Shown here: piece by piece, positions 6,292 through 46,704 of the stretch
Layout of the letters: every line of letters begins with the position of its first letter
How positions within the stretch are numbered: position 1 is the stretch's first letter
Assembly: GCA_035559435.1 (NCBI GenBank)
Contig: DATMBC010000045.1
Coordinates: 1 to 47,969, forward strand
DNA: 47,969 nucleotides
From: a bacterium
GTDB lineage: Bacteria > Zixibacteria > MSB-5A5 > WJJR01
Direction: 5' to 3'
The notes under the pieces: generated by a model
Told to the model about the DNA's origin: nothing
Database searches by the model: none
Seen by the model: only the letters and a program-made list of their open reading frames with translations
Made by a program: the position numbers and the translations under genes

Positions 6292-9200
6292 TTAGACAGG
6301 CCGCGCGGGCCCATCGCTCTTATTGTGTTTGATTTGCCAAAGCCGCCAGTATGTGTACACCACCGGAATCACCTCCAGCGTCAGGAACGTCGACGTGATC
6401 AGCCCGCCGACCAGCGGCGCGGCAATCCTGCGCATCACATCCGAACCCGTCCCGGTCGCCCACAGCACCGGCGCCAGCCCGATGATGTTGACCATCACCG
6501 TCATCAGCTTGGGACGCACCCGCATCACCGTGCCTTCCATGTGCGCCCAGATGATGTCGTTGAGGTCGCGGATTTTCCCCGCCGCCCTGCGGCGCTCATA
6601 GGCCTGGTCGAGATAGAGGATCATCACAATCCCCGTCTCGGTCGCAATCCCCACCAGCGCGATGATTCCCACCCAGGTGGCGGTCGAAAAGTTGTAGTCG
6701 AGCGCGTACATGAGCCAGATCGACCCGACCAACGCAAACGGCACCGACGCGAGCACGATCAACGTCTCGGTGAAGTTGCGGAAGTTCAGGTAGAGCAGGA
6801 TGATGATCAGCAGCAATGTGATCGGCACGACAATCTGCATGCGCCGTGCCATCGCCTCGAGCAGTTCATACTGCCCGGTCCACTTGAGGTAGTAGCCGGC
6901 GGGAATCGTGACCTTCTCCGCGACCGCCTTCTTGGCATCCTGCACATACCCGCCGATGTCGCGGCGGCTCTGATCGATGTCGACAAAGACATACCCGACC
7001 AGCATGCCCGCCTCGTTTTTGATCATCGGCGGCCCGGCGGCGATCCGGACATCGGCGATCTGGCCAAGGGGAATGTGCGCGCGCCCCGCCGGCAGTTCGA
7101 ACCGGTAACCGGTGCCGGTCGGCGCGGGGGAGGCAGACGGCGTCGAGGATCCCGGCGTCGGCACGCTCATGGCGGCGGGCCCGGACGCGCCACTCCCGGA
7201 CGCAGAGCCGCCGCCGCCCATGCCGCCCATCTGGAACGAGGGCGTCGCCCACGGGTTGTAAATCCCCTCCAAATCCAGCGACGCCAAAAGCGGCGGCTCC
7301 GGTTCGGGCAACGCGCTCATCCCGCCCATGCCGGCGGCCGCGGGTCCCGCCGCCGTCGGCAACGGCACCAGCACCCCCTTGAGCCGCTCGACATTCTGCC
7401 GCAGATCGCGCGGATAGCGCACGTTCACCGAAAACCGCGCCCGTCCCTCGACCGTCACCTCGATCGGCATGCCGCCGATCGCCGCTTCGATCACATCCTG
7501 CACATCGCGCATGGTGAGGCCATAACGCGCGATCGCCGTGCGGTCGGGCACGATGTCGACAAAGTATCCGCCCGTGTTGCGCTCGGAAAAGACACTGCGC
7601 GTCGCCGGGATGGGGGAGAGGGTCCGTTCCAATTCCTGTCCGATGCGTTCGATTTCGGCCAGGTCATCCCCGAAGATCTTCACCCCGATCGGGGTGCGAA
7701 TGCCGGTGGAGAGCATGTCGATGCGGGTCTTGATCGGCATCGTCCAGGCGTTGGTCCATCCCGGCATGTTCATTGCCTTGTCGAACTCGGCGACCAGCTC
7801 CTCCCAGGTGATGGTGCGTGTCTCCGGCCAGATGAGCCGCAGCGCCGGCTTGACGAACTCCGGCGCCGAACGCGAATACCAGCGTTCGACCTCGATTGCC
7901 CGCCACTCCTCGGGCGGTTTGAGCTGCACCACGGTTTCCAGCATCGACAGCGGCGCCGGGTCGGTCGGGGTCTCGGCGCGCCCCGCCTTGCCGTAGACAG
8001 CGACCACCTCGGGAAACGACCGGATCACCCGATCCTGGAACTGCATGTAGTTCTTCGCCTCCTCCACCGAGATGTTCGGGAAGGTGGTCGGCATGTAGAG
8101 GATGTCGCCCTCGTTAAGCGGCGGCATGAACTCCGAGCCGATCTGCGGGATCATCGGGACGGCCGAGATGATCGCCGCCACGCCGATGGCGATGGTCGTC
8201 TTCGGATTGCGCAGCGCGACGTAGACAAACGGCTTGTAGAGACGGATCAGAAACCGCGAGACCGGATGCTCGCGCTCGTGATGAATCCGTCCGCGCACAA
8301 ACAGCATCATCAGCGCCGGCACCAGCGTGATGGCGATCATCGCCCCGAAGAACATGACGAAGGTCTTCGTATACGCCAGCGGGTGAAACAGCCGCCCCGC
8401 CTGGCCGGTGAGCGCGAAGATCGGCAGGAAGGCCACGGTGATGATCAAAAGCGCGTAGAACACCGACGGGCCGACCTCCTTGGCCGCTTCGATGAGGACG
8501 CGTCGACGGTCGGTGCGCGCGGTGGCGCGCTCGAGTTTCTTGTGCGCGTTTTCCACCATCACGATGCTGCCGTCGACCAGATCGCCGATGGCGATCGCGA
8601 TCCCCGCCAGACTCATGATGTTCGAGCCGATGCCCAACAGGTGCATCGGGATGAACGCCAGCCCCACCACGATCGGAATCGTGATGATCGGCACCAGCGA
8701 ACTGCCGAAGTGCAGCAGGAAGACGATGATGACGGCCGCGACCGCGATGCCTTCCTCGATGAGCGTGGACTTGAGCGTCTGGATGGAGCGATTGATCAGA
8801 CCGCTGCGATCATAAACGGTCTTCAATTCGACCCCGGGCGGAAACGACGGCGTCATTTCGGCGATCTTGGCCTTGACCCGGCCGATGACGTCGAGCGCGT
8901 TTTCGCCATAGCGCATCACCACGATCCCGCCGACCGCTTCGCCGATGCCGTCGAAGTCGCCAACCCCGCGCCGGATGTCGGGCCCGTAGGTCACCCGCGC
9001 CACATCGGCCACCCGAATCGGGACGCCGGTCGGGGAGACGCCCAGTCCGACCTGACGCAGCGCCTCGAGATCCTCGATGTAACCGAGTCCGCGGATGTAA
9101 TACTCGCGCCCCGACATCTCGACCACACGGCCGCCGACGTCGTTGTTGCTGGCGCGGATGGCGCGCGCCACGTCGCCGATGGTGAGATCGTAGGCGCGCA

Positions 9201-9786
9201 GGCGGTCGGGATCGACCTCGACCTGGTACTGCTTTTGATAGCCGCCGATCGAGGCGACCTCGGCCACCCCGGGCACCGTCGCCAGGGCGTACTTCAACGT
9301 GAAGTCCTGGAAGGTCCGCATCTCCGCCAGATCGTGGCGTCCGCTGGTGTCGACCAGCGCATACTGGAAAACCCAACCGACCGAACTGGCATCGGGGCCA
9401 ATCTGCGGCGAAACGCCCTCCGGGAGAGACCCTTCGATCTGCTTGAGGTACTCCAACACCCGGCTGCGCGCCCAGTAGATGTCGGTGCCGTCCTCGAAGA
9501 GGACATAGACAAACGACATCCCGAACATTGAGTACCCGCGCACCGCGGTCACTTTGGGCGCCGCCAGAAGCGAGGTTACAATCGGATAAGTCACCTGGTC
9601 TTCGACCAGGTCGGGGCTGCGCCCCATCCACTCGGTCCACAGGATGACCTGCACATCCGACAGGTCGGGGATGGCGTCGAGGGGAATGTTGTTCAGCGAA
9701 TACCATGCGCCCAGACAGGCGAAGATCGTGGCAATGATCACCACCGTCTTGTTGCGCGCACAGAATTCAATCAGCGAGCGGACCAT
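6292..9786 (-). CDS. cusA: CusA-like heavy-metal RND efflux pump
   Basis: Inner-membrane proton-driven transporter of the HME-RND family, forming an envelope-spanning tripartite pump with the adaptor and TolC-type channel encoded upstream. Family signatures are NIPLDAIPDLSDVQV near the N-terminus, GPDASSVGWVFQYALVD, and GIAIAIGDLVDGSIVMVENA in the TM region that carries the proton-relay Asp. At 1164 residues it is over 100 longer than usual. Most of the excess is a Gly/Ser/Pro/Met-rich segment at about residues 811-901 (bases 7084-7356), where relatives have only a few residues before the conserved IPLGQIADV strand. The neighbouring YHS-like and heavy-metal-binding modules favour Cu/Ag over Zn/Co/Ni, but substrate cannot be settled from sequence alone. 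Confidence 0.95.
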   Translation of the reverse strand: MVRSLIEFCARNKTVVIIATIFACLGAWYSLNNIPLDAIPDLSDVQVILWTEWMGRSPDLVEDQVTYPIVTSLLAAPKVTAVRGYSMFGMSFVYVLFEDGTDIYWARSRVLEYLKQIEGSLPEGVSPQIGPDASSVGWVFQYALVDTSGRHDLAEMRTFQDFTLKYALATVPGVAEVASIGGYQKQYQVEVDPDRLRAYDLTIGDVARAIRASNNDVGGRVVEMSGREYYIRGLGYIEDLEALRQVGLGVSPTGVPIRVADVARVTYGPDIRRGVGDFDGIGEAVGGIVVMRYGENALDVIGRVKAKIAEMTPSFPPGVELKTVYDRSGLINRSIQTLKSTLIEEGIAVAAVIIVFLLHFGSSLVPIITIPIVVGLAFIPMHLLGIGSNIMSLAGIAIAIGDLVDGSIVMVENAHKKLERATARTDRRRVLIEAAKEVGPSVFYALLIITVAFLPIFALTGQAGRLFHPLAYTKTFVMFFGAMIAITLVPALMMLFVRGRIHHEREHPVSRFLIRLYKPFVYVALRNPKTTIAIGVAAIISAVPMIPQIGSEFMPPLNEGDILYMPTTFPNISVEEAKNYMQFQDRVIRSFPEVVAVYGKAGRAETPTDPAPLSMLETVVQLKPPEEWRAIEVERWYSRSAPEFVKPALRLIWPETRTITWEELVAEFDKAMNMPGWTNAWTMPIKTRIDMLSTGIRTPIGVKIFGDDLAEIERIGQELERTLSPIPATRSVFSERNTGGYFVDIVPDRTAIARYGLTMRDVQDVIEAAIGGMPIEVTVEGRARFSVNVRYPRDLRQNVERLKGVLVPLPTAAGPAAAGMGGMSALPEPEPPLLASLDLEGIYNPWATPSFQMGGMGGGGSASGSGASGPAAMSVPTPGSSTPSASPAPTGTGYRFELPAGRAHIPLGQIADVRIAAGPPMIKNEAGMLVGYVFVDIDQSRRDIGGYVQDAKKAVAEKVTIPAGYYLKWTGQYELLEAMARRMQIVVPITLLLIIILLYLNFRNFTETLIVLASVPFALVGSIWLMYALDYNFSTATWVGIIALVGIATETGIVMILYLDQAYERRRAAGKIRDLNDIIWAHMEGTVMRVRPKLMTVMVNIIGLAPVLWATGTGSDVMRRIAAPLVGGLITSTFLTLEVIPVVYTYWRLWQIKHNKSDGPARPV

Positions 9787-9804
9787 AATGGTCAGTCCTT
9801 TCTG

Positions 9805-11304
9805 CTAATGCTGGTGCGCCGGTGGCGCGGTGGCCGAATCGACCGTCCCCATGCCGGAGATCGCCGCCTGCAGACGCGACTCCGAGTCGATCAGGAAGTT
9901 GGCGCTGGTGACCACGATGTCGCCGTCGGACAGTCCCTGACGAATCTCGATGAAATCGTCGCCGCGCCGTCCGACCGTCACCCGACGGGGCACAAAGTGC
10001 GTGCCGTCGTGCACGACAAAGACATACTGCGTCTGCCCGCCGTCGAGCACCGCATCGGCGGGCACGGCCAGCGCCGGTTCGCCGCCGCCGGCAATCCGCA
10101 CGTCGGCGTACATCCCCGGACGCAGCCGCAGCCCGGGGTTGGCGACTTCGATGCGCACACGCACCGTGCGCGTATCCGGCGACAGCGTCGGGTACACAAA
10201 CGACACCGTGCCCGCAAACGACTCGCCGTTGAAGGTCACTTGTGCCGAGTCGCCGACGCGCACCCGGTCGAGATCGCGTTCATACGCTTCGGCGATGATC
10301 CAGACGCGCCGCAGATCGGCGATGGCCAGAAGCGTTTGTCCCGGCCCGACATACTGCCCGGCCTGCACCGGTTTGTCGAGGACATAGCCGGTGAACGGAC
10401 TGCGCAACACCAGCAACGATCCGTTTGTGGCGCCCTGGCCGATTTCCAGTTCGCTTAAACCGAGAAACCGCAGCCGCCGCTCGGCCGCTTCGGTCACCTC
10501 GCGCTTGATCGCCTTCATCAGCGTATCGGAGGCGATTTGCTCGGCGCGACGCGCCACCTGATAATCCTGCCAGGCCTGATACAGCTCGGGACTGTAAATG
10601 GCCAGCAGCGGCTCGCCCTTCTCAACGCGCTGTCCGGTCTCATTCACATACAATTCCTGGACCCAGCCCGATGTCCGTAATTGCACTTCGGCGAGCGTGG
10701 TCTCGTCCGGTGTGACATACCCCGCCAGACGGACCCCGTCGCTGATCACCCGGCGCGTCGCCGGGGCGGTCTTCAGGCCGATCAGTTGCAGCCGTTGCGG
10801 CGCCAGCATCACCGGCACCAGCCCGGGCACGTTCGATTCCGTCGTCGTCGCCGCCAGCTTGGTGGTGTCCACCTGAACCAAAAACATGCGGCAGACCGGG
10901 CACCGTCCCGCCGTATCGGAGACCACGTCCGGGTCCATCGGACAGCCGTACTGCCCGTGGTGCGCCTTTGTCTCGCGCATCCAGGCGTTGTCGCCGTCGG
11001 TGGCCATGTGATCCGATGCGCCCGCGGCGTCGTTGATCGGCACCAGCTTCATGCCGCAGATCGGGCAGTCGCCGGGTTGATTGCTGATGTAGGTGGGATG
11101 CATCGGGCAGTGATACTGCTGCCCGCCGGCGCCGTCGGAGGCCCAGGGCGTGACGCCGAAGTATCCCAGCACCATCACCGCGGCAAACAGGCACATCCCG
11201 CCGAAGAGAATCCAGCGGACCACCGCCATGGTGTGGGTCAGCGGCGGCGCCTCTTCGACACCCTCCGGCATCGGTTCCAGCTCGAGATCGTCATGGGGGT
11301 TCAT
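9805..11304 (-). CDS. cusB: RND efflux adaptor (CusB-like) with two heavy-metal-binding domains
   Basis: 499-residue periplasmic membrane-fusion protein linking pump and outer-membrane channel. After a TM anchor (about 27-50) come two heavy-metal-binding domains: YHCPMHP...GDCPICGMKLVP (Cys 66, 80, 83) and YGCPMDP...GRCPVCRMFLVQV (Cys 121, 135, 138). Then follow the usual barrel-sandwich, hairpin and beta-barrel parts (AGYVTPDETTLAEVQLRTSG, SPFTGYVLDKPVQAGQYV). The Met/Cys/His-rich N-terminus could capture metal from the YHS-like protein. The ATG overlaps the stop of the upstream TolC-family gene by 4 nt (11301-11304), and the RND gene starts 18 bp downstream. The tail is His-rich (APPAHQH). 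Confidence 0.95.
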   Translation of the reverse strand: MNPHDDLELEPMPEGVEEAPPLTHTMAVVRWILFGGMCLFAAVMVLGYFGVTPWASDGAGGQQYHCPMHPTYISNQPGDCPICGMKLVPINDAAGASDHMATDGDNAWMRETKAHHGQYGCPMDPDVVSDTAGRCPVCRMFLVQVDTTKLAATTTESNVPGLVPVMLAPQRLQLIGLKTAPATRRVISDGVRLAGYVTPDETTLAEVQLRTSGWVQELYVNETGQRVEKGEPLLAIYSPELYQAWQDYQVARRAEQIASDTLMKAIKREVTEAAERRLRFLGLSELEIGQGATNGSLLVLRSPFTGYVLDKPVQAGQYVGPGQTLLAIADLRRVWIIAEAYERDLDRVRVGDSAQVTFNGESFAGTVSFVYPTLSPDTRTVRVRIEVANPGLRLRPGMYADVRIAGGGEPALAVPADAVLDGGQTQYVFVVHDGTHFVPRRVTVGRRGDDFIEIRQGLSDGDIVVTSANFLIDSESRLQAAISGMGTVDSATAPPAHQH

Positions 11305-12626
11305 TGTGTTTCCTCGTTTCCGTTGTCGGCCGGCGAGACATAGCGGCCGGGATCGGCGGTGTAGCGTTCCGCCTCGATCAACGCCGTCGCGTACGCCAAC
11401 TCCAATTCGGTGAGCACGCGCCGGTCGGCGAAGATCGCCGCGGCATAGTTGAGCAGGTCCGGCAGCGAGGTGCGTCCGGCGGCGTATCCGGCCAGCGCCG
11501 TACGGAACGCATCCTCGTCGGCGGGGATGATCCGTTCACGGTAGAGCGCCCCCGCCTCCTGGAAGTGCCCGGCGCGCATGTGCAGCGTGCGCAATGCGGC
11601 GTCGACCTCCTTGGCCAATTGCGCCGCCTCGGCCTCCATCTGCTTCTGCATCGCGGTCATCGACAGCGCCATCTGACGCTCGTTGCGGCCGCGGAAGACC
11701 GGCAGCGAAAAGGTCGCGCCGAAACTCCACATGTCGCTCTGGGCCATCCTCTCGCCGTCCGCCAAACGCAGATCGTCACGGATGCCGTATTCCGCCGACA
11801 ATTCCAGCATGGGCCAGCTCATGCGGCGCGAAGCGCGGGCGCTCAAGCGATAGCGCTCGGCGCGTTGCGCCATCGCGCGCAATGGGGCGTAGTGGGTACG
11901 CGCCGAATCCAGCCAGACCTGAAAGGTGTCCGGCAACGCGCCCCAGGCCGGCCGAACCACCGCCGGCATGTCGTCCGGGGAGACCACCCCGCGCAACGCA
12001 TCCAGACGATGGTGCGCCGAGTGGGCGTCGTTGTGATGGGTCAGAATCTCCGCCTCCAGACGCCACATCGTCGCCAGAGCCGCGTTCAACTCATCCTGCC
12101 CGGCCAGGTTGGCCTCCAGACGCGAGCGCACGCTGGTGGCGATTTGCTCGGCCAGTTCGCGTTGACGCTCCAGATCGTCGATCAGCTGCTGGTGGTAATA
12201 GAGTTCGGCGTACGCCGTCTTGGCGGCGGCCACCAGATCGAGCGTCTTTTGCCGCCGGTCCTCGCCGGTTGCCTCGGCCTCGGCGCGTTGTGCTTTGGCC
12301 TGCAGACCCTTTTCGCCGGCGTAGGGGATGCGCTGCGACAGGCCGACGGCCTTCATCGTCATCATCTCCTCGTCGAAGCGCAGCGAGGACGGCAGGTTCT
12401 CGATGCCCAGCATGAGCATCGGGTCATCCCAGGCCCCGGCCGGGCCGACCTGACGTCGCGCCGCCTCCTCCATGAAGGCGGCCGCCTTGAGGGCGTCGTT
12501 GTGACGGAGCACCTCGCCGACCACTTCGTCGAGCGACAACGTGTCAGTTGGGGGCGATTGCGCCCACAACCCCGAGGGCGCCGCCATGGCCAGCAAGGCG
12601 AACATCCAGATGCCAAAGGTCTTCAT
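11301..12626 (-). CDS. TolC-family outer-membrane channel of the metal efflux pump
   Basis: 441 residues with a signal peptide ending near LWAQS and long helical segments of the outer-membrane efflux protein family (LVAAAKTAYAELYYHQQLIDDL, LPVFRGRNERQMALSMTAM). It supplies the exit duct for the adaptor and RND genes that follow with 4-nt and 18-bp spacing. Closest in type to CzcC/CusC-like channels of non-enteric bacteria; no lipobox is seen. The upstream gap to the Cys-rich gene is about 107 bp and holds a short GGCCCGGATGGGCC hairpin. The ribosome-binding site is weak. Confidence 0.92.
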   Translation of the reverse strand: MKTFGIWMFALLAMAAPSGLWAQSPPTDTLSLDEVVGEVLRHNDALKAAAFMEEAARRQVGPAGAWDDPMLMLGIENLPSSLRFDEEMMTMKAVGLSQRIPYAGEKGLQAKAQRAEAEATGEDRRQKTLDLVAAAKTAYAELYYHQQLIDDLERQRELAEQIATSVRSRLEANLAGQDELNAALATMWRLEAEILTHHNDAHSAHHRLDALRGVVSPDDMPAVVRPAWGALPDTFQVWLDSARTHYAPLRAMAQRAERYRLSARASRRMSWPMLELSAEYGIRDDLRLADGERMAQSDMWSFGATFSLPVFRGRNERQMALSMTAMQKQMEAEAAQLAKEVDAALRTLHMRAGHFQEAGALYRERIIPADEDAFRTALAGYAAGRTSLPDLLNYAAAIFADRRVLTELELAYATALIEAERYTADPGRYVSPADNGNEETQ

Positions 12627-21699: not shown

Positions 21700-22158
21700 C
21701 GGTTACTGGCAGGGGAACGTTGAAGGTGCTCCCCTCGATCCGGTCCGCTGGTCACATCGACCTTCCTCCGATTCGCGCTCACAATCCTGCAGACAATGGA
21801 AAGCCCCCATCCGGCGCCGTCCGATGAAACGGCCGTGCTCGCGGACAATGCGAAACCGGTCAGTGGCCAGCGTCAACGCGCCCAGCCCCATGACGATGAA
21901 CGCGTCCCGGTGGACCATCTGGACATGCTCGCCCCCGGTCAGTTCGAATTCGTCGCCCATCAGGAGATGGAAAACGATCATCGTAAAAGCCGGGCCGACG
22001 ATCGCCAGCCCGCCGGCCAACAGCTGTCCCCGACGAGCGCTCTGCCGGATGTCTTCACGGAATTCAGCGTCGCGCTCGGCGTCGGTGGGCGCGGACCGGC
22101 CGCAGCGCTCCACCGGTTCGTGGAGTCTGCCGCGCCGGCCGGTCGGAGGTGTGCTCAT
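21700..22158 (-). pseudogene. Remnant of a membrane histidine kinase
   Basis: Reading the minus strand from the ATG at 22158, one frame gives a soluble start, two TM helices (LLAGGLAIVGPAFTMIVFHL and DAFIVMGLGALTLATDRF) and stops resembling anything after REHGRFIG. A second frame beginning about 21825 then reads DGAGWGLSIVCRIVSANRRK and VDVTSGPDRG, a clear G2 box and C-terminus of a histidine-kinase ATPase domain; a third frame finishes it as GSTFNVPLPVT (about 21734-21701). So the dimerisation domain and most of the ATPase domain are deleted, and an extra G in a four-G run shifts the last part. It converges on the tRNA-Leu terminator. Confidence 0.75.
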
Positions 22159-22263
22159 GATGCGGTCGCAGGGGAAGAGATCGGCCCGGAGGATTTCCGC
22201 ACGCCGTTCGCACAATCCCGGCGCCAAAACACGCTCCGGACGCGTATCTTAGTGTCAGTATCG

Positions 22264-23736
22264 ATGCGTGCGGTGGCCGGACAATACTCGCTGTTTTGCT
22301 CCCCGCGGGCGCTGGTCCGCCTGCTTTTTGCCGTCATGCTGGCGGCGCTGGCCGCCGCCTGCGCCGCCCCGCTGCAATCCAGGGGCGAACGCGCCCCGCT
22401 GACCGAACGGGAAGAGGAAGCGGCGTTGCGCGCGCTGCTCGGCGCCGAAAAGTTCGGCGAGTATGTCACCATCGAGGACACTCTCGCCTCGGCCGACTGG
22501 CTGCGTCGCTTCTGGACCTCCCATGACCCGACCCCCACCACCCCGGAAAATGAGTTCCGCGAGGAACATGACCGTCGGGTCTATCACGCCATCTATCTGT
22601 TCGGCAGTCCCGGCAAGGGAGGGCGGCCGTGGGATGATCGCGGCGAGGTGTACATACGCTACGGCCAGCCGGATGAGCGGATCGTGCGTCAGGCCGGGGT
22701 CAACAATGACGGCGTCGAGCCGCCGGGCGGCCGCGCGGATGACTTCTTCGACGCGCCGCTGAACGAGGCCGATGCGGCCATCGAAGTCTGGTCCTATAAT
22801 CGCTGGAACGAGACCTTTCAGTTTGAGGACAAGCGCGGCTTCGGCTTTTTCGAACTGGCACCGGTGACCGATCCGGCGTTCCGCCGCCAGTCGGCGGGCG
22901 AGTTCCACTCCGCCCGACTGCGCGCCATCGATTTGCAGCCGGCGATTTATTATCACGAATACGGCCGCAACCTGATCGACTACGCGCTCGATGTCGTCCG
23001 TTTCCGCGGCCAGCCGGGGACCTGGCGGCTGGACATCAACCTCGGCTACCCGCTGGCGCAACTCGGGCGCGGCCCCGATTCCACCAGTTTCAGCATCCGG
23101 CGCACCCTGCTGGTGCGCGATGAGCGCGAAGAGGAAGTCTACAGCGAAGTCGGCATCATCTCCCGCCAGGCGGGCCGTCAGGGACCGACCAACCAATTGG
23201 TCATCGAGCAAAAGGTCCTCGAACTGCCCCCGGGTCGCTACACCGTCGCCGCCACCATCGAGGACGAAAACACCGGCAAGTCGGGCACGTACCTGAAGCC
23301 CCTGCGCCTGCCGGAGTACATCAGCCCCGAAATCCAGGAGATCTCCGACATCGAATTGGCGTCGTTTGTCTGGTCGATCTACGAGCCCGGCTCGCCATTC
23401 ATCAAGAATCAGCAAATGGTGATGCCGCTGCCGTCGCGGGTGTACCTGCCCGATCAACCGCTGGCCTTCTACTTCGAAGTGTATCACCTGCTCCTGGACG
23501 AGAGCGGGCGGACGCACTACCAGATCGACTACGAAATCTCCGCGTTGGACGGCGACTTCAAAACCGGGCGGCCGGGCACCGGCGTTCTCTCCGGTTCCAC
23601 GCGCGAAATCATGCACTCCGCCACCCTCGACATCGGCGATCTGCCCAGCGGCGATTATCTGCTGACCGTGCGCGTCACCGACCTGGTCGGCAAACACGAA
23701 AAGCAGGCCGTGGCGCGCTTCGCCAAATCGAGTTGA
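22264..23736 (+). CDS. GWxTD-domain lipoprotein
   Basis: 490 residues from the chosen ATG: signal with lipobox LAAAC (Cys about 36), then the GWxTD-type region FGEYVTIEDTLASADWLRRF, WTSHDPTPTTPENEFREEHD, RPWDDRGEVYIRYGQPDER, and a C-terminal beta-rich part (RVYLPDQPLAFYFEVYHLLL). The GWxTD family occurs mainly in FCB and related phyla as envelope proteins of unknown function; here the namesake motif reads RPWDD rather than GW.TD. No Shine-Dalgarno is evident; an ATG at 22336 would leave too short a signal. The stop lies 21 bp from the convergent cytochrome gene. Confidence 0.85.
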   Translation: MRAVAGQYSLFCSPRALVRLLFAVMLAALAAACAAPLQSRGERAPLTEREEEAALRALLGAEKFGEYVTIEDTLASADWLRRFWTSHDPTPTTPENEFREEHDRRVYHAIYLFGSPGKGGRPWDDRGEVYIRYGQPDERIVRQAGVNNDGVEPPGGRADDFFDAPLNEADAAIEVWSYNRWNETFQFEDKRGFGFFELAPVTDPAFRRQSAGEFHSARLRAIDLQPAIYYHEYGRNLIDYALDVVRFRGQPGTWRLDINLGYPLAQLGRGPDSTSFSIRRTLLVRDEREEEVYSEVGIISRQAGRQGPTNQLVIEQKVLELPPGRYTVAATIEDENTGKSGTYLKPLRLPEYISPEIQEISDIELASFVWSIYEPGSPFIKNQQMVMPLPSRVYLPDQPLAFYFEVYHLLLDESGRTHYQIDYEISALDGDFKTGRPGTGVLSGSTREIMHSATLDIGDLPSGDYLLTVRVTDLVGKHEKQAVARFAKSS

Positions 23737-23757: not shown

Positions 23758-24183
23758 TCAGTTGTCCAGCGCGCCTTCGGCGATCCAGATGCGAACGAGT
23801 TGAATCAGCGTGTCGGCCAGCGGCGCACGGCCGTAAGGCATGCGCGGTGTCAGACGGCCTTCGAGGCGCTGCACCAGCGCGCTGCCTGAGCTGTCGCCGG
23901 GAATCACCACGCCACCCTGCATGAGGGTCGCGTGGCTTTGCAGACAGAGCCCGCCGCCGTTGTTGGCGCCGCAGGGATTGTGGCAGAAGGCCCCGCCGCA
24001 GTTGGCGGCGAAGATCGGCAGTACATCGGCCGCAAACGAAACCGTGGCGGTGTCGCCGTTCTGGCCGCCGCCGTTTCCGACGGTCGGGATGCCAGTTCCG
24101 AAATCGGCGCAGCCGGCCATTGTGACAAACACCAGCGCCACCGCCGCCGCCAGCCACTCGCCGCGTTTCTCAATAGAACGCAT
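23758..24183 (-). CDS. c-type cytochrome lipoprotein (planctomycete-type PSCyt1-like)
   Basis: 141 residues: lipobox MAGC (Cys 25), then VSFAADVLPIFAANCGGAFCH with an unusual CX4CH haem site (Cys 62, Cys 67, His 68), SHATLMQGGVVIPGDSSGSA, RMPYGRAPLADTLI and IRIWIAEGALDN, the pattern of planctomycete-type cytochrome C domains including a distal Met (RMPYG). Probably a lipid-anchored electron carrier. The ATG lies inside the 3' end of the haem-barrel gene (14-nt overlap, 24170-24183), so the two form a coupled pair. Confidence 0.85.
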   Translation of the reverse strand: MRSIEKRGEWLAAAVALVFVTMAGCADFGTGIPTVGNGGGQNGDTATVSFAADVLPIFAANCGGAFCHNPCGANNGGGLCLQSHATLMQGGVVIPGDSSGSALVQRLEGRLTPRMPYGRAPLADTLIQLVRIWIAEGALDN

Positions 24184-25294
24184 GGAAGAGTATCTCCACC
24201 CGTGTGTCATCGGTGACCGACTGCGCGGTCGTCTCCCGCTCGAAGCGCACCAACGGCTCCACTTTGAGGAAGTGCCGCAGATAGATCCGCGACCCGACGC
24301 TGATGCGGTATTGCGTTCCGTTTTCGTGATCCAGATCAGGATCGAGGAAATCGTAACCGACATACAGGTCCAGCCCCTGGCGCGGTCGAACGTCCAGCTC
24401 CTGCGACATGACCCAGGACCAGGTGCGTCCGCGACGGCCGGTGTCCGCGTCCGACGCCATCCGACGGCCGAAGAGATCGGCGAGGTAGGCAAACTGTCGC
24501 CAGCTCGCCTGCCCCTGGATTCCCCAGAGCCGCTCCCTGACCAGGGGACCGGAGTTCCAGCGGGTCGATCCGCCAAGGGCAGTCTGGACTGAGCCCATGC
24601 GCCAACGTGCCAGCGCCTTGCCGACATACATCTTCTGCGAGTTGTCGTCGAACCGGGCATTGCCGTTCCCGTTGAACACGCCGCCGGTCAGCGTCAGCGG
24701 GCCGGGCGAGAGGCCGACTTCGATCCCGGTCTCGGTGGCGCCGGGGTAGTCGAGATCGAGACGCTCGCGCGTGTAGTGATTGTGGTCGTCCCACCGCCAG
24801 CCCAGGTCGGGGACAAACCGCCCGCCCTTGACATATCCATGCGCCGGCAACAGACGCGCCAGCGCGAAGACTTCGTAGTCGGCGCCGGTGCCGCGATCGA
24901 GGTACAGCAGGAATTGCGGATCGGGTTCGAAGGCGACATAGAAATCCGCCTGCATCTGGAAAAACGAGTTGTCCAGCGCGCCGACCGCGGTGCGGGCATT
25001 GTCGCTGGCCAGGTAGAGCAGACGCAGGTCGGTCCCGACAGTGATGAAGTCATTCAGACGCGCCTTCGGCCAGCGCGCGCGCTCGTGCGCGGGCAGAGGA
25101 TGTAACGGCAATTCGGCGGGGCCGATGAATTCGGTCACATACGAGTTGCGCATGCCGCCGCCGGACGGATTGGCATGGCAGAGTTGACAGTCCTGACCGT
25201 ATTGCGCCGCCAGCCGCGGCGTGGCCCGGGCAACGGGGATCAGACTCAAGATCGACAGACCGATGGCGACAGGCAGAATCGGGCGGCTCATCAT
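24170..25294 (-). CDS. Outer-membrane beta-barrel with an N-terminal c-type haem site
   Basis: 374 residues. Signal peptide (1-24), then RLAAQYGQDCQLCHANPSGGG with a CxxCH haem site (Cys 36, Cys 39, His 40) and MRNSYVTEF; the rest alternates in short amphipathic strands rich in Tyr/Trp/Arg (IEVGLSPGPLTLTGGVFNGN, QYRISVGSRIYLRHFLKVEP) and ends in LFHAFY with a terminal aromatic, as outer-membrane barrels do. A barrel with a covalently bound haem at its periplasmic end could take part in electron transfer across the outer membrane; that role is inferred. The downstream cytochrome lipoprotein overlaps it by 14 nt. Its partner transporters or terminal reductases are not in the window. Confidence 0.85.
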   Translation of the reverse strand: MMSRPILPVAIGLSILSLIPVARATPRLAAQYGQDCQLCHANPSGGGMRNSYVTEFIGPAELPLHPLPAHERARWPKARLNDFITVGTDLRLLYLASDNARTAVGALDNSFFQMQADFYVAFEPDPQFLLYLDRGTGADYEVFALARLLPAHGYVKGGRFVPDLGWRWDDHNHYTRERLDLDYPGATETGIEVGLSPGPLTLTGGVFNGNGNARFDDNSQKMYVGKALARWRMGSVQTALGGSTRWNSGPLVRERLWGIQGQASWRQFAYLADLFGRRMASDADTGRRGRTWSWVMSQELDVRPRQGLDLYVGYDFLDPDLDHENGTQYRISVGSRIYLRHFLKVEPLVRFERETTAQSVTDDTRVEILFHAFY

Positions 25295-25343: not shown

Positions 25344-25365
25344 GGCCCGGACCAAGGTCCGGGCC
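25344..25365 (-). terminator. Hairpin after the minus-strand barrel gene
   Basis: Perfect GGCCCGGACC-AA-GGTCCGGGCC. On the minus strand it follows the 25577 gene and is trailed by TCATTATTG, a weak T-rich tail. The 282-bp gap 25295-25576 shows no gene. Confidence 0.5.
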
Positions 25366-25576: not shown

Positions 25577-26884
25577 TCACAATCGGAAGGGGAAGCGTAT
25601 GGCCAACGCCCCATACGTGTAGTCGGTGTCGCGCGACGGGTTGTCGTGGTTTTCCGTCTCGTACGTGGCCGACAGACTGAGCGTAAAGTGATCACCGACC
25701 GAGGCATCGACGCTCAGATCAATCTCCAGGAAATCGTAATCGTCGTAGACCAGCGAGCGGTCGCTGTAATACCGACGGCCCCATCGTCCTCCGGTATCGA
25801 TCCAGACCATTCCCGAGGGTTGCCAGCCGGCGACCGGTCCGGCCGCCCAGTCGGTGAAATCATTGTCCGCGAACGCGTCGCTGGCCGCCCCTTCCCAGCG
25901 GGACCGCGCTTGCGCTCCCACCGTCCAGCGTCCCACCGCACGTCGCGCCTCCAGTTCCACTTTGCCAACAGCGAAGTCAAAGTAAATCTCCGCGTCCTGC
26001 GCGTAATTCCAATACTCCCAGTCGGCTTGCGCCTCGGCGCGCCAACGATCGCCAAAGTGGCCGCGCGCCGACAGCTCAACCTCGGTGCGGCTGTGGTCCC
26101 GTTCGGCGCCATCGGTGTCATACTCCCGCGCCCGGTGCGACACCGCCAGGGTCCAGAGGGCCGGTCCCCATTCCCAGTACGACGCCTCCGCCGCGATCCA
26201 GGCCTCCTCATAGGCCAGACGGCTCGAGTCGGGAACCCGGCGGCTGGTGAGCCCGGCTGTCATATCAATCGCCTCAAGCAACGCGCCGCTGTAACGTATC
26301 CCGGCCCGTCCCCGCCAACGGGAGTAGTCCAACCCCCATGTCGAGCGCGCGTCGTAGGCCGTCCCTTCCCAGTCGCCGCGCGCCAGGACACTCCACCGCT
26401 CGCCCAGCGTATACCGCGGCGCCACCGTCGCCTGGCCAAACAGATAACCCGACGAGATCGTGTCGCGGTCATCATCGCCCTTCCATTCCAGCCGGGCGTT
26501 GGCATCGACCGTCCACTGCCGCCGCCGCCAGCGTGTGCGCGCCGTGGCGATGTTGCGCCAGGCGGCGTCGGTGGCGTAGAGGGTGTTGCTGATCACGGTC
26601 GCGCCCCGCTGGTAGGCGGTTTCCAGCGAGAGATACGACTCCTTCAAGTCTTCGATGGTGCGCTCCAGTGTCTTAAGCGAGTCGGGATCGATATCCAGCG
26701 TGTCCTCAAGGAAGAATGATTGCTCGAAGCGGTCATGGCCGATACCTGGCACAAGCAGCCAATGGCGCTCCTCTGCCCAGGAAGCGGTGGCGGCGCCGAC
26801 CGCGAAGGTCGCCATTGCCAGTGCGCCAAGCGTGATTCGCCGCCACCTGCCCGCATTGGTCGTCGTGCCCGCCACGCGTGTCAA
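25577..26884 (-). CDS. Outer-membrane beta-barrel protein of unknown function
   Basis: About 435 residues. Signal peptide with RWRR before a hydrophobic stretch ending in ATASWAEE; a helical segment (IDPDSLKTLERTIEDLKESY) and then many short amphipathic strands (RARFGYIR-like alternation such as YWEWGPALWTLAVSHRARE, WTVDANARLEWKG) ending IRFPFRL. No conserved domain is recognised; it looks like a barrel of about 18 or more strands. Start uncertain: TTG at 26884 with GGGAAG upstream is preferred; TTG at 26911 is also open, and there is no ATG before the signal peptide. Confidence 0.75.
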   Translation of the reverse strand: MTRVAGTTTNAGRWRRITLGALAMATFAVGAATASWAEERHWLLVPGIGHDRFEQSFFLEDTLDIDPDSLKTLERTIEDLKESYLSLETAYQRGATVISNTLYATDAAWRNIATARTRWRRRQWTVDANARLEWKGDDDRDTISSGYLFGQATVAPRYTLGERWSVLARGDWEGTAYDARSTWGLDYSRWRGRAGIRYSGALLEAIDMTAGLTSRRVPDSSRLAYEEAWIAAEASYWEWGPALWTLAVSHRAREYDTDGAERDHSRTEVELSARGHFGDRWRAEAQADWEYWNYAQDAEIYFDFAVGKVELEARRAVGRWTVGAQARSRWEGAASDAFADNDFTDWAAGPVAGWQPSGMVWIDTGGRWGRRYYSDRSLVYDDYDFLEIDLSVDASVGDHFTLSLSATYETENHDNPSRDTDYTYGALAIRFPFRL

Positions 26885-26957
26885 TGTCGCTTCCCGGCAG
26901 TGAGTGAACAAACGTTAACCGCATTCGGCGCGGACCCGCGAGTGCCCGCGCAAAAGC

Positions 26958-38886: not shown

Positions 38887-38914
38887 TTGCGGGATCGCAA
38901 ACCGGATGTATATT
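38887..38914 (+). promoter_or_regulatory. Possible promoter of the first beta-roll fibre gene
   Basis: TTGCGG (38887-38892), 16 bases, TATATT (38909-38914). A start near 38921 would give a leader of about 66 nt. Confidence 0.4.
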
Positions 38915-38986
38915 ATCCGTATTCCGTGCCGCCGTCGGCGGTGGCCCGTACTTACTTACCCATACTGTCATCCGGGAGGTCGCACC

Positions 38987-40981
38987 ATGCGTAACAGCCC
39001 GCCTTTCGCAGTCGTTGTCGCCGTGTTGCTTGCCGCAGCGGCATATGCCGCTGTGCCGGCGAGCATGAGTGTGCAGGGGAAACTGACCGACGCCCTGGGC
39101 GAACCGATCGTCGGGAGCCAGAATTTCACGTTCAAAATCTTTGACGCCGCGGTTGGCGGGTCCGAGATCTGGCCCGGCGGTCCGGGCGAGACCCAGTCGC
39201 TGAACACCGACGCCAACGGTCTCTGGATCGGGCTGGTCGGCGCGGTAATCCCGCTCAACCACACAGTGTTTCAGGACACCGTGCGCTGGCTGGAGATTAC
39301 GGTCAACGGGACCACGCTGCCGCGCACCCGATTGGTCACCGGCGCCTACGCGCATCGCGTCGGGACCGTCGACGGCGCCTCCGGTGGCTGGATTACCAGC
39401 AAGGTGACAATTGGGCCGGGGCAGACGAATACGGGGTCCGAGGCCTTCGTCGCCGGCAGCAATAACACCGCCACCGGCGGCTGGTCGAATGTCGGCGGCG
39501 GCAGCGGCAACCTCGCCTCCGGCCCGTGGTCGAGCATCGGCGGCGGTGCCGGCAATATGTCCAGCAACGACGGGACAACGGTCGGCGGCGGCGAGTACAA
39601 TGTGGCCGCTGGTTTTCTGTCAACCGTCGGGGGCGGCTACAGCGATACGGCCTTCGGAGGCCACTCTGCCATCGGTGGCGGCAGCCGTAATCGCGCCTCC
39701 GGCGATTATTCATTCATCGGCGGCGGCCTTTACCACACGGCGTCGGGCACTGCCGCGACGGTGGCCGGCGGCGCGTCGAATCTTGCCTCCGCCTGGGGCG
39801 CCACGGTCGGCGGCGGGCAGTACGACACCGCGATTGGTTTATACTCCACCATCGCCGGCGGCAATCGCAACAGAGCAATAGGCGATGGGGCGACCGTCGG
39901 AGGCGGGGCCTACTGCTTTGCACGCGGCCCATACTCGGTCGTCGCCGGCGGCGGCGGGTTCGACAGCGACTCCAACTCGGCCAAGGGCGCCAACGCCACA
40001 ATTGGCGGGGGCCGTCACAACTACGCCGATGGCGTAGTGGCAACGGTCTCCGGCGGCGCCAGCAACAATGCGCCGGCCAGTCATGCGACCATCAGTGGCG
40101 GCGGCTCCAATTCGGCCACCGACTTCGGGGCGGTTGTTTGCGGTGGGTACGCCAACACGGCCGCTGGAGCGTGGTCGACGGTTGCCGGCGGCGATCACTG
40201 CGAGGCCACCGGCCAGTGCTCGTTTGCCGCCGGTCGCAACGCCAAGGCGATTCACAACGGCAGTTGGGTCTGGGGCAGCAGCGAACCTGTCGACTTTCCC
40301 TCCACGGCCGATCGGCAATTCCTGATCCGCGCCGTGGGGGGCGTGGGCATCAATACCAACACACCGACCGAAGACCTCACGATCAACGGCACCGTCGCTT
40401 TCGAGAACTCGTCGCTGCCGGCAATCAACATGTTTGAATCTGGAACCAGCAACGCCGACAAGATGATTCTGGCGCATTCCTCCGCGTTCCCAGACTGGGG
40501 GCTGGAGTATCGCGACGCCGACGACAAGTTCGTCTTCATCCGCGATGGGTTCCCGGGCATGACGATCGATTTCAATCAGGCCAATACCCTCGTGGGATTC
40601 GGTTCGGTCGACTCGCCCTCCAATATCATCACGTTGCCCAACTTTAACAGCATCAACGGCCGCGCGCTCGGCTTTGCCTGGGATGTCTACTCTTCTCGCC
40701 GTTGGAAGACCAACATCCGTCCGCTGGATGGATCGCTGGACAAGGTGCGCCGCCTGCAGGGCGTCTCCTATGATCCCATCGAGGGCGGCGGGCGACAGAT
40801 TGGTCTGATCGCCGAGGATGTCGGGCAGGTGGTTCCCGAAGTGGTGCAATACGAAGAGAACGGCGTCGATGCCAAGTCGATCGACTACGCGCGGCTGGTG
40901 GCGCTGCTCATCGAGGGGATGAAGGAACAACAGAAACGGATCGAGACGCTGGAGGCGACGATCCGGCAAATGCAACCGTAG
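38987..40981 (+). CDS. Secreted beta-roll fibre protein with S74 autocleaving chaperone domain (shorter paralogue)
   Basis: 664 residues in four parts: a signal peptide (1-22); an N-terminal domain shared with the 43582 gene (VQGKLTDALGEPIVG, SEIWPGGPGETQ, DGLWIGLVGA, VRWLEITVNGTTLP); about 18 YadA-head/Hep_Hag-type repeats of 15 residues (pattern SxIGGGxxNxAxGxx) at about 150-430; a connector; and a C-terminal peptidase S74 intramolecular chaperone. The dyad of that family is kept: Ser 569 and Lys 574 in SSRRWKTNIRPLDG, followed by IGLIAEDVGQVVPEVVQ and a coiled coil (LIEGMKEQQKRIETLEATIR). By family knowledge such proteins trimerise, and the chaperone cuts itself off. GGGAGG precedes the ATG at 38987. 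Likely a surface fibre, function unknown. Confidence 0.9.
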   Translation: MRNSPPFAVVVAVLLAAAAYAAVPASMSVQGKLTDALGEPIVGSQNFTFKIFDAAVGGSEIWPGGPGETQSLNTDANGLWIGLVGAVIPLNHTVFQDTVRWLEITVNGTTLPRTRLVTGAYAHRVGTVDGASGGWITSKVTIGPGQTNTGSEAFVAGSNNTATGGWSNVGGGSGNLASGPWSSIGGGAGNMSSNDGTTVGGGEYNVAAGFLSTVGGGYSDTAFGGHSAIGGGSRNRASGDYSFIGGGLYHTASGTAATVAGGASNLASAWGATVGGGQYDTAIGLYSTIAGGNRNRAIGDGATVGGGAYCFARGPYSVVAGGGGFDSDSNSAKGANATIGGGRHNYADGVVATVSGGASNNAPASHATISGGGSNSATDFGAVVCGGYANTAAGAWSTVAGGDHCEATGQCSFAAGRNAKAIHNGSWVWGSSEPVDFPSTADRQFLIRAVGGVGINTNTPTEDLTINGTVAFENSSLPAINMFESGTSNADKMILAHSSAFPDWGLEYRDADDKFVFIRDGFPGMTIDFNQANTLVGFGSVDSPSNIITLPNFNSINGRALGFAWDVYSSRRWKTNIRPLDGSLDKVRRLQGVSYDPIEGGGRQIGLIAEDVGQVVPEVVQYEENGVDAKSIDYARLVALLIEGMKEQQKRIETLEATIRQMQP

Positions 40982-43581: not shown

Positions 43582-46500
43582 ATGCGCGCCCGCATGATCA
43601 TCACCGCGTGTGGCGTGATTTTGGTTGGCACTGTTTCGCACGCCGCCGTCCCGACAAGCATTACCGTGCAAGGCAAACTCACCGACGCGGCCGGTCTTCC
43701 CTTGGTGGCGGGACCGAAGTCGTTTGTCTTCCGCATCTTCGACGCCGAATTTGGAGGCAGTGAAATCTGGCCCGGCGGCGCGGGCGAAGCGCAGACGATT
43801 ACGTCGTCATCAGATGGTCTATGGATCGGTTTGATCGGCGCGATCAACCCACTGGGCGAGTCCGTCTTTGCCGACTCTGTGCGTTGGCTTGAGATCACTG
43901 TCAACGGCACAACACTGCCGCGCGTACGCCTCGTGACCGCACCATTCAGCTTCCGTGTCGCAACAGTTGACGGCGCTTCTGGCGGCACAATCACCAGTAA
44001 AGTCTCCATTGGGCCGGGGCACACGAACACAGGGATTCATTCGTTTGCCGCGGGCGAGGGACAAACGATCAGCGGACACTGGAGTTCGATCACGGGTGGA
44101 AGTGGCAGCTCTGCGTCTGGAGGACATGCGTTCATCGGTGGCGGCGAAGCGAACACGGCCGGCAGCGATTATGCGACTGTTGCCGGAGGAAAGGATAATC
44201 AAGCGGCCGGAGAACTCTCGGCGATTGTTGGCGGGGATGGCAATGTCGCGTCCGGAATCTGGTCTGCCATTGGAGGTGGCGAAGGCAACCAGACGCCTGC
44301 GGATTGGTCCACGGTCGGCGGAGGACTCACCAATCAAGCGAATGCAGGAGTAAGCACAGTCAGCGGCGGTCACAACAACATCGCCAGCGGAAATGCCTCA
44401 ACCGTCTCTGGGGGCGAATTCAACCGGGCGCGCGGCAGTCACTCAGCCGTCGCCGGGGGGGGCGGACTCGTTGCTTCTGATTCGAATTCCGCATTGGGTG
44501 CCAACGCATTCGTCGGAGGCGGCAGAGGCAACATCGCTTCGGGCGACTCATCGACAATTGTGGCTGGTGCGCGAAACTTAGCCAGCGAGGTGAATGCGAC
44601 GGTGGGCGGTGGCCGGGCCAATCAGGCAACCGCACAACATGCTACCGTCGCGGGCGGAAGTGGAAATGTCGCCGAAGGACCGCACGCGTTTGTCGGAGGT
44701 GGAGATGGCGTGGTCGCCACAGGCGCGGCCAGCACTGTCGGCGGCGGCGAAAGCAATTCGGCGTCCCAGAGCTACGCAACGGTCGGGGGTGGTATACTCA
44801 ACGAAGCGGGGGGATACGGGTCATTTGTCGGTAGCGGCGAGGAGAACCAGGCAACGGGTGTGATTTCCGCCATCCCCGGCGGTACAGGAAATCGCGCTGC
44901 GGGCTATGCAGCGAATGTTGCTGGAGGAATCCTGAATGTTGCCGGGGACACGGCGGCAAGCATCGGCGGCGGACGACACAATCGAGCGAGGGGACGCTAT
45001 TCCGTCGTGTCCGGCGGCGGTGGGCCCGCGGAAACGGATTCCAATGCCGCTTATGGGACGAATTCAACAATTGGAGGTGGCAGGGCGAACCTGGCCGTCG
45101 CGGACTCGACGACGATCGGAGGTGGCGGTGGTAACGTCACCGCGGCCATCGGGGCGACAATTGCCGGCGGTGGAGCCAACTTCGTCCGCGGCGCCTTTGG
45201 CGTCGTTGGAGGAGGCAAGAACAACCGCTCGCATGGCCCCTATTCCGTGATCGGCGGGGGCGGCGGCGACGCATCCGCAGATTCCAATGCGGCCGCCGGC
45301 CAGAATACCACCGTTTCCGGAGGACGATCCAATGCCGCCACTGGGCGATACGCGTCGGTCGGCGGAGGACGCCATGGGCGCGCCCACGGGGCATATTCTT
45401 TCATCGGAGGAGGCGGCGGGGACTTGGACAAGGATTCCAACGCGGCGTCCGGACAAAACGCAACCGTGTGTGGCGGTGGTATGAACACCGCATCAGGGGA
45501 TTACGGAACTGTGGGGGGAGGACGCCGGAATTACTCCCGTGGGAAATTCGCTTTCGTCGGCGGTGGCGGCGGAGATTTTGAGCCCGACTCAAATTCTGCT
45601 TCCGGTGAGAATTCCGTCATCTCCGGAGGAAAGAGCAACGTTGCCAGTGGCCTTCGCGCAACGGTGTCCGGCGGCTTCTCCAATCGGGCGACCGATCAGG
45701 GCGCCAGCATCGGCGGTGGCACAGCCAATGATGCTTCGGCGCTGGCCGCCACGGTCAGCGGCGGATATCGAAATCACGCTCGAGGAGAGTACAGCGTTGT
45801 GTGCGGCGGAGGCGGGCAGCTCGACTCGGACACGAACACGGCCGCCGGAAGCAGCTCATTCATCGGGGGCGGCGCCGGCAATTATGTCAGCTCCTCGGCG
45901 GAGTACTCGGTGATCGGTGGCGGGCGGAACAATCTGGCGAGCGGAGATTCTTCCGTCATCGCGGGAGGACTCAACAATACTGCGAGCGGTCATTCATCGA
46001 CTATCGGCGGTGGCAAATACAATGAGGCGTTGGCGTCGAACTCAACTGTGTGCTGTGGGCTTTCGAACATAGCATCCGGATCGCAGGCGGTCGCGGTCGG
46101 TGGACAACTGAATGAGGCGCGAGGACTACGCTCGCTGGCGGCTGGCTTCAATGCCAAAGCACATCACCAGGGTTCAATCGTGATCGCCGCTGGTGGAAGC
46201 GGTGTAGTGAGTGATTCAATCAGGTCGGGTGCCAATGGGCAAATGGTGCTCCGCGCCAATGCAGGGCTTTACATTACAAACACCTCTGGAACGGCCACAC
46301 CCATAGCGGGTCAGTTTATTACCACGACCGCAGGTTCCCCGGGAGCTCACCTCACGACAACCGGCGTCTGGACGAACGCATCCAGCGCGGAGAGCAAAGA
46401 AAACTTCCGGCCGCTGGACGGCGACTGCCTGCTGGAAAAGGTCGTGCAGTTGCCAATCACGAGATGGAACTATAAAGATGATCCCGACAGCGTCACGCAC

Positions 46501-46704
46501 ATCGGGCCCGTCGCGCAGGATTTCTATCGCTTATTCGGCGTTGGCAGCAACGACAGGACAATTTCAACGATCGACCCGTCCGGCGTTGCGCTCGCGGCCA
46601 TCCAGACCCTCTGCAAGCGGAATCAGGAGCTCGAAACGGCGGTCATAAAACTGCAAAACGAACTGAAGAGCATCAGGGAGACTCTGGCGACGCGCTCAAA
46701 GTAG
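43582..46704 (+). CDS. Large secreted beta-roll fibre protein with S74 autocleaving chaperone domain
   Basis: 1040 residues and the same build as the 38987 gene: signal (1-21); shared N-terminal domain (VQGKLTDAAGLPLVAG, GSEIWPGGAGEAQ, DGLWIGLIGA); about 45 YadA-head/Hep_Hag-type repeats of 15 residues (about 150-830) and a set of longer 20-21-residue units; then S74 with Ser 934 and Lys 939 in SSAESKENFRPLDG, and a closing coiled coil (LCKRNQELETAVIKLQNELK). The S74 core is more divergent than its paralogue's but the dyad is intact. GGAGG precedes the ATG at 43582; an ATG at 43594 is also possible. Codon choice uses more GGA/GGT and less third-position GC than most of the window. Short repeats A and B occur on both sides. 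Confidence 0.9.
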   Translation: MRARMIITACGVILVGTVSHAAVPTSITVQGKLTDAAGLPLVAGPKSFVFRIFDAEFGGSEIWPGGAGEAQTITSSSDGLWIGLIGAINPLGESVFADSVRWLEITVNGTTLPRVRLVTAPFSFRVATVDGASGGTITSKVSIGPGHTNTGIHSFAAGEGQTISGHWSSITGGSGSSASGGHAFIGGGEANTAGSDYATVAGGKDNQAAGELSAIVGGDGNVASGIWSAIGGGEGNQTPADWSTVGGGLTNQANAGVSTVSGGHNNIASGNASTVSGGEFNRARGSHSAVAGGGGLVASDSNSALGANAFVGGGRGNIASGDSSTIVAGARNLASEVNATVGGGRANQATAQHATVAGGSGNVAEGPHAFVGGGDGVVATGAASTVGGGESNSASQSYATVGGGILNEAGGYGSFVGSGEENQATGVISAIPGGTGNRAAGYAANVAGGILNVAGDTAASIGGGRHNRARGRYSVVSGGGGPAETDSNAAYGTNSTIGGGRANLAVADSTTIGGGGGNVTAAIGATIAGGGANFVRGAFGVVGGGKNNRSHGPYSVIGGGGGDASADSNAAAGQNTTVSGGRSNAATGRYASVGGGRHGRAHGAYSFIGGGGGDLDKDSNAASGQNATVCGGGMNTASGDYGTVGGGRRNYSRGKFAFVGGGGGDFEPDSNSASGENSVISGGKSNVASGLRATVSGGFSNRATDQGASIGGGTANDASALAATVSGGYRNHARGEYSVVCGGGGQLDSDTNTAAGSSSFIGGGAGNYVSSSAEYSVIGGGRNNLASGDSSVIAGGLNNTASGHSSTIGGGKYNEALASNSTVCCGLSNIASGSQAVAVGGQLNEARGLRSLAAGFNAKAHHQGSIVIAAGGSGVVSDSIRSGANGQMVLRANAGLYITNTSGTATPIAGQFITTTAGSPGAHLTTTGVWTNASSAESKENFRPLDGDCLLEKVVQLPITRWNYKDDPDSVTHIGPVAQDFYRLFGVGSNDRTISTIDPSGVALAAIQTLCKRNQELETAVIKLQNELKSIRETLATRSK

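Follow-up and report, generated by a model that had tools for sequence, protein, structure and literature searches.

Gene layout

The window analysed here is a stretch of 47,969 nucleotides (contig DATMBC010000045.1, positions 1 to 47,969 of the forward strand, assembly GCA_035559435.1) from an uncultured bacterium of the phylum Zixibacteria (lineage MSB-5A5; WJJR01). In the list of open reading frames, gene 1 runs from 25294 to 24170 on the minus strand (374 aa) and gene 2 from 24183 to 23758 on the same strand (141 aa), with the 14-nt overlap that a preliminary description of the sequence had already placed there, without naming the strand. The features of the pair and its upstream region are as follows.

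24170..25294, minus strand: gene 1, read as a fused monohaem c-type cytochrome and 16-stranded outer-membrane porin of a Cyc2-like sister family (ORF, model, OprO/OprP matches, homologs)
25223..25294, minus strand: putative gene 1 signal peptide, residues 1-24, ending in ARA (by inspection; predicted cleavage site)
25175..25189, minus strand: gene 1 haem-binding motif CQLCH, residues 36-40 (a single CXXCH in 81 of 81 aligned rows)
25145..25171, minus strand: gene 1 family signature NPSGGGMRN, residues 42-50, in place of the PXL of Cyc2 (alignment)
24176..25045, minus strand: gene 1 barrel, with 16 strands spanning residues 84-373, ending in aromatic Y374 (model and alignment)
24170..24183, minus strand: overlap of gene 1 and gene 2, 14 nt
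23758..24183, minus strand: gene 2, lipid-anchored monohaem cytochrome, PSCyt1-like (ORF, Pfam, alignment, model)
24109..24183, minus strand: gene 2 lipoprotein signal, lipobox MAG|C with Cys at residue 25 (by inspection; relatives have similar lipoboxes)
23980..24000, minus strand: gene 2 haem-binding motif CGGAFCH (CX4CH), residues 62-68 (all 19 aligned rows keep both cysteines and the histidine)
23836..23841, minus strand: gene 2 Met115-Pro116, kept in every one of the 19 rows, a candidate distal ligand of the haem
25344..25365, no strand: perfect 10-bp inverted repeat (GGCCCGGACC / GGTCCGGGCC), 50 nt upstream of gene 1

The inverted repeat is the sole such match within the window and may be a terminator, an operator or a repeat element. 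Further upstream on the strand of gene 1 lies a 444-aa protein (25577-26911, minus) that has no Pfam family above cut-off and carries strand-like C-terminal repeats; it is perhaps another outer-membrane barrel. On the other side, a GWxTD-domain protein (21796-23736, plus) is convergent with the pair, and a convergent ORF occupies the same place at a named relative's locus (L033:9785-11260), the ORFs of the two loci on that side matching by BLAST. More distant parts of the window encode an RND efflux set (6292-12626, minus), consisting of an AcrB-type pump, an HlyD-type adaptor with a heavy-metal-binding domain and an outer-membrane efflux protein, and two large proteins (38906-40981 and 43582-46704, plus) with C-terminal endosialidase-chaperone (Peptidase_S74) domains.

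The barrel protein

The AlphaFold2 model of gene 1, computed from 57 sequences (the window protein and those of named loci), has a mean pLDDT of 88.5 and a pTM of 0.84, and consists of a helical plug, with helices in residues 26-72, and a barrel whose 16 strands lie within residues 84-373. The best matches to this model among solved structures are OprO (4rjw) and OprP (2o4v), with Z 25.6 each over 291-292 residues. The preliminary description had proposed a c-type haem site joined to an outer-membrane barrel and had named structure prediction beforehand as the test; the outcome was a barrel and not a soluble or non-barrel fold, and together with the CQLCH motif it upholds that proposal. Sequence searches were far less informative: barrel and cytochrome matches in Pfam were below threshold (cytochrome, 15.2 versus 27 bits), NCBIfam had no name for gene 1 or gene 2, phmmer searches of both genes against PDB sequences gave nothing useful, and the haem-motif matches that a profile of 25 homologs retrieved from the same sequences were all weak (best E 0.13).

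Homologs were aligned in 81 rows, which correspond to 69 distinct proteins. Alignment A1 takes in 24 of the 31 homolog loci L002-L032 (omitting L011, L013, L015, L017, L027, L030 and L032) and alignment A3 takes in 56 of the 59 loci from named genomes (omitting L070, which is cut off, L075, where no start was found, and L091, which is without the family signature). All 81 rows keep a single CXXCH, extend it to CXXCHxxPxG..R and end in F, Y, L or I. Since 56 of the loci were retrieved with a PxGGGMR pattern, the invariance of the signature is partly a product of selection, and independent support for it comes only from the 24 A1 loci, which were found by protein similarity and carry the signature with small variations. 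Several barrel residues are also conserved, among them the charged R91 (56 of 57 rows), E141 (54 of 57) and R176 (53 of 57), and H371, near the end of the last strand (49 of 57), which is a candidate distal ligand of the barrel haem.

We consider that the pore probably carries its own haem. The opposite view, an ordinary porin with a fortuitous CXXCH and no haem, could appeal to the cytochrome match below the Pfam cut-off and to the fact that the haem is predicted here from the motif; it is very improbable given a CXXCH at the same place in every aligned row, within a conserved Cyc2-like context.

The partner cytochrome

Gene 2 resembles the planctomycete cytochrome C domain PSCyt1 (PF07635) and scores just below the curated Pfam cut-off (21.2 bits, E 0.00045, versus 22 bits); a relative, at L069, reaches 40.2 bits. 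The model of gene 2 is helical, with a mean pLDDT of 81.2. In an alignment of 19 partners, both haem cysteines, the histidine and a Met-Pro about 47 residues further on are invariant, and this arrangement suggests a His/Met class-I cytochrome. Foldseek comparison of the model returned weak matches to hydrazine synthase, FoxE and OmcF (best E 0.089), which were set aside as evidence of function. A search of the window's genome for the PSCyt1 family gave no match and the controls were equally silent, hence the result is uninformative; the partner itself is present there in one copy.

A lipid-anchored cytochrome with a CX4CH site, as previously described, agrees with the lipobox Cys at residue 25 and with CGGAFCH at residues 62-68, and CX4CH has been counted as a haem site elsewhere (PMC5566968, available excerpt). 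The spacing had been called unusual, which does not hold for this family: the 43 partners adjoining named barrels comprise 12 with CX4CH, 30 with CX2CH and one with CX6CH, and the partner family differs from PSCyt1 in having its haem cysteines separated by 2, 4 or 6 residues. The CX6CH form (CATSSTSCH) was seen at L057:1165-1578 and L022:1009-1422. A lipobox was recognised by pattern in 14 of 21 selected partners, a set that includes two or three other cytochromes, and residues of the CSDxG type follow the lipid Cys in the partners of many relatives; comparison of six partners with 14 other lipoproteins is no more than suggestive of a position at the cell surface.

Distribution and gene neighbourhood

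The barrel is present in one copy in the window's genome and has homologs in 45 of the 132 genomes searched in the phylum Zixibacteria, the weakest of these matches (e.g. L015), which are barrel-only, probably being other porins. Among 37 nearby genomes besides the window's own, 14 have homologs of gene 1; since a same-genus genome rated 100% complete (G001) has no barrel match, presence is patchy. An initial contig scan from one protein sequence alone recovered no relative, and a plasmid search gave no match to the barrel and only short weak matches to Cyc2-like proteins. The scan of named genomes recovered 59 barrel loci in Zixibacteria, Krumholzibacteriota, Ignavibacteriota, Bacteroidota, Nitrospirota, Myxococcota, Fidelibacterota and Gammaproteobacteria, with one weak match in Bdellovibrionales. 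Named strains with the family are Steroidobacter agaridevorans, Povalibacter uvarum, Bowmanella dokdonensis and Aliidiomarina halalkaliphila, and the named relative at L033 (Candidatus Zixiibacteriota) is 55% identical. One locus labelled Calditrichota (L054) falls inside a Zixibacteria clade of the tree and may be mislabelled. Many of the hosts, Steroidobacter for example, are not known to oxidise iron.

The preliminary description had suggested a search for the pair in related genomes, and there it does recur. By profile search, 43 of the 59 named loci have a partner cytochrome directly adjoining the barrel and on its strand, downstream in 20 loci and upstream in 23. The partner profile is partly circular, having been built from loci of the same set; its control is the count of only eight non-adjacent matches in 708,105 flank bases. 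It replaced a hand-made motif rule that had missed the gammaproteobacterial partners because these lie upstream. Within L001-L032, the window's own locus included, 29 of 32 loci have the partner, the remainder being the weak barrel-only match L015 and two short loci with little or no flank (L017 and L030). The tree unites the gammaproteobacterial rows in a single clade (100/100), and every one of them has the partner upstream; in the Zixibacteria rows the partner is downstream. Adjacency therefore survives a reversal of gene order, which argues for a functional link. Given the homologs, the invariant CXXCH and the recurrent pairing, the gene pair is not a chance finding, and it is a module shared across phyla and not a local oddity. 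In Zixibacteria the pair is often followed by a YceI-like gene, 10 loci sharing the group by BLAST and one member being identified by Pfam (L062:9461-10084).

The PSCyt1-like partner is absent from 16 of the 59 named loci, and in several of these another redox gene lies beside or near the barrel. Four loci (L044, L047, L048 and L049) have instead, directly downstream, a gene of one BLAST group, and the two of the four that were scanned (L044 and L048) match the copper-binding plastocyanin/azurin family (cupredoxin) above the Pfam cut-off; a Rieske protein lies upstream of the barrel at L053, a diheme ORF directly downstream at L038 and L051, and a diheme cytochrome upstream, with one ORF between, at L045. 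Two further loci are cut off (L070 and L075). No redox partner could be recognised at L034, L042, L043, L046, L050 and L085, where the right flank measures 974 bases at L042 and 152 bases at L043.

The recurrence of dedicated one-electron carriers beside the barrel bears on a different function, in which the plug would control solute uptake or sense oxygen, as a haem-gated porin or redox sensor, and the cytochrome would set its redox state. The solute-porin fold of the OprP/OprO type and the conserved R91, E141 and R176 are compatible with such a role, which is nonetheless quite improbable in view of these carriers and of the kinship with an iron oxidase set out below.

Relationship to Cyc2

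Cyc2, the nearest relative, serves as the principal marker of biological iron oxidation. It is defined by the motifs AXPXFAR[Q/K][T/Y] upstream and PXL downstream of CXXCH, the templates reported for it are OprO and OprP, and its haem plug has been proposed to sit at the periplasmic mouth (PMC8406198, available excerpt); a redox potential of 208 mV is given for it in partly available text. The barrel family shares with Cyc2 a monohaem c-type plug at the N-terminus joined to a porin of 16 strands with OprO/OprP matches, a single CXXCH near the mature N-terminus and the A-x-P-x-[F/L] spacing before it. In contrast to Cyc2, the family has PXFAR[QK][TY] and PXL in none of 81 rows (the window protein reads ATPRLAAQY), has its own signature CXXCHxxPxGGGMR, and has its own adjacent PSCyt1-like partner. 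The Cyc2 length floor of 365 aa is reached by the window protein (374 aa) and by 37 of the 81 rows, the other 44 being shorter.

Profile comparison with six Cyc2-motif proteins gave 99.1% at full length (E 5e-19, 305 columns), 97.4% for the family barrel alone (E 1e-11) and 96.3% for the N-terminal 50-mer of the family (E 2e-9). In the control, the distant porin family represented by E. coli OmpF, OmpC and PhoE, full-length comparison gave 9.1% (23 columns, signal peptide) and the barrel alone 0.5%; 85 other CXXCH contexts from the loci reached 91.2% at best, against 93.8-95.2% for five Cyc2-motif N-termini taken singly. In a tree whose root is not fixed, which has several long branches and which holds no isolate reference Cyc2, five Cyc2-motif proteins and 69 family rows fall on opposite sides of one branch (100/99). 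A Cyc2-motif protein lies directly downstream of a family barrel in a Nitrospirota genome (L045:8783-10222). Because the defining motifs fail, we do not file the family as Cyc2; the family probably works like Cyc2 and is probably its distant homolog, and the barrel is best read as belonging to a Cyc2-like sister family in which a monohaem cytochrome and a porin are fused and which has an electron carrier of its own. Cyc2-like genes have been reported in Ignavibacteriaceae, in partly available text, and could include members of the barrel family.

With a fused monohaem cytochrome-porin as the nearest relative, haem carried by the barrel is an arrangement already known, not the uncommon form it had been taken for: Cyc2 has the same architecture, 16 strands and the same structural matches. 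The kinship brings in the possibility that the pair is a true iron oxidase, which, in the manner of Cyc2, would oxidise dissolved Fe(II) at the surface and supply an aerobic chain with the electrons. The Cyc2 architecture, the profile-level kinship and the terminal oxidases in the genome point this way, as do the genes for iron oxidation and iron reduction assigned to Zixibacteria and Ignavibacteriales by FeGenie (PMC8478452, available excerpt). Set against them are the lack of the diagnostic motif throughout the alignment, the ecologically mixed hosts and the separate Cyc2-motif proteins that Zixibacteria hold, the protein at L045 having a match in 41 of 132 genomes, the window's genome not among them. 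A Cyc2 profile search of the window's genome, run without a positive control, gave no match. Altogether, iron oxidation is a serious possibility for the pair, if a doubtful one.

Other electron-transfer systems and genome background

The preliminary description had likened the pair to parts of porin-cytochrome conduits. The likeness stands as far as a probable coupling by electron transfer is concerned; it does not extend to the relative then in mind, since Cyc2 is nearer than the multihaem MtrAB or OmbB type. MtrCAB, MtoAB, PioAB and OmbB-OmaB-OmcB also have adjoining genes for a barrel and cytochromes, and electron exchange at the outer membrane follows by analogy; those complexes are described, in partly available sources, as having multihaem cytochromes and, in the Mtr/Mto type, 26-strand barrels, whereas here the barrel has 16 strands and each protein a single haem motif. 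Cyc572 (Cyt572) of Leptospirillum, likened here by description only, is an outer-membrane cytochrome c with a 16-stranded barrel according to similarly partial text.

The window's genome has three matches to cytochrome c assembly proteins, which make haem attachment plausible, and four to haem-copper oxidase subunit I, which indicate a capacity for oxygen respiration; in addition, the cbb3-type cytochrome domain matched six times and Cytochrome_C554 twice, a sign of other c-type cytochromes. Multihaem cytochromes, which the preliminary description had proposed to look for elsewhere, are represented by ORFs with 4, 6, 7 and 8 CXXCH. These ORFs, the lipoprotein cytochrome adjoining the barrel and the porin-cytochrome operons that the FeGenie authors report in Zixibacteria (PMC7005843, available excerpt) would fit an outward route, with the module handing periplasmic electrons to an extracellular acceptor or redox mediator. 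The barrel, however, has one haem only, and a search of the genome for the MtrB/PioB-type porin (PF11854) gave no match, a weak result as the control matched only below cut-off; we regard the outward route as unlikely.

The available excerpts of PMC8406198, PMC10654088, PMC11976967, PMC8478452, PMC7005843, PMC6344600 and PMC5566968 do not describe the gene pair. The fused monohaem cytochrome-porin is a known kind; the excerpts covered contain no account of the family with its signature, its pairing across phyla with a PSCyt1-like lipoprotein, and its exchangeable carriers.

Proposed function

The computational results establish the barrel, a single haem motif in each protein, the pairing across phyla and a distant kinship with Cyc2. 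Haem attachment, membrane side, electron transfer, its direction and its substrate are what we infer in the following scheme. Both proteins would be exported by their signal peptides and receive their haem in the periplasm; the barrel would then insert into the outer membrane so that the short monohaem plug at its N-terminus sits at the periplasmic mouth. The lipid-anchored class-I-like cytochrome would trade electrons with the barrel haem, which a soluble extracellular redox partner could meet through the pore. This lipoprotein would also act as a relay, in one direction or the other, between the barrel and a periplasmic chain ending in a haem-copper oxidase. By analogy with Cyc2 we would prefer electron uptake from a dissolved donor, Fe(II) being one candidate among several.

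We think it reasonably likely that the pair is such an outer-membrane electron-transfer module, in which a haem barrel from a sister family of Cyc2 trades electrons with a lipid-anchored cytochrome. The genes that replace the cytochrome beside the barrel encode cupredoxin, Rieske and diheme proteins, also one-electron carriers, and we count them in favour of the module. Counted against it are the missing Cyc2 motif, the six partnerless loci, the CX6CH at L057, the weak fold matches of the partner, the gap at G001 and the hosts that are not known to oxidise iron; in addition, the single barrel haem may lie too far below the outer surface to complete a wire.

A bolder version of the module is a minimal two-haem wire through the outer membrane, with the barrel haem at the periplasmic mouth or in the lumen and the lipoprotein docked opposite to it, perhaps at the cell surface; it would be used across phyla, mostly by bacteria that do not oxidise iron, the carrier having been swapped in evolution for a cupredoxin, a diheme cytochrome or a Rieske protein. 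This version is speculative, and we would not expect it to hold in full.

As an electron-transfer module, the pair may represent a simple and hitherto undescribed way of carrying electrons across the outer membrane. If the sister family is real, the Cyc2 motif would miss it, and loose profile searches could miscall its members as evidence of iron oxidation. Its occurrence in named strains makes electron transfer across the outer membrane by a single-haem porin testable.
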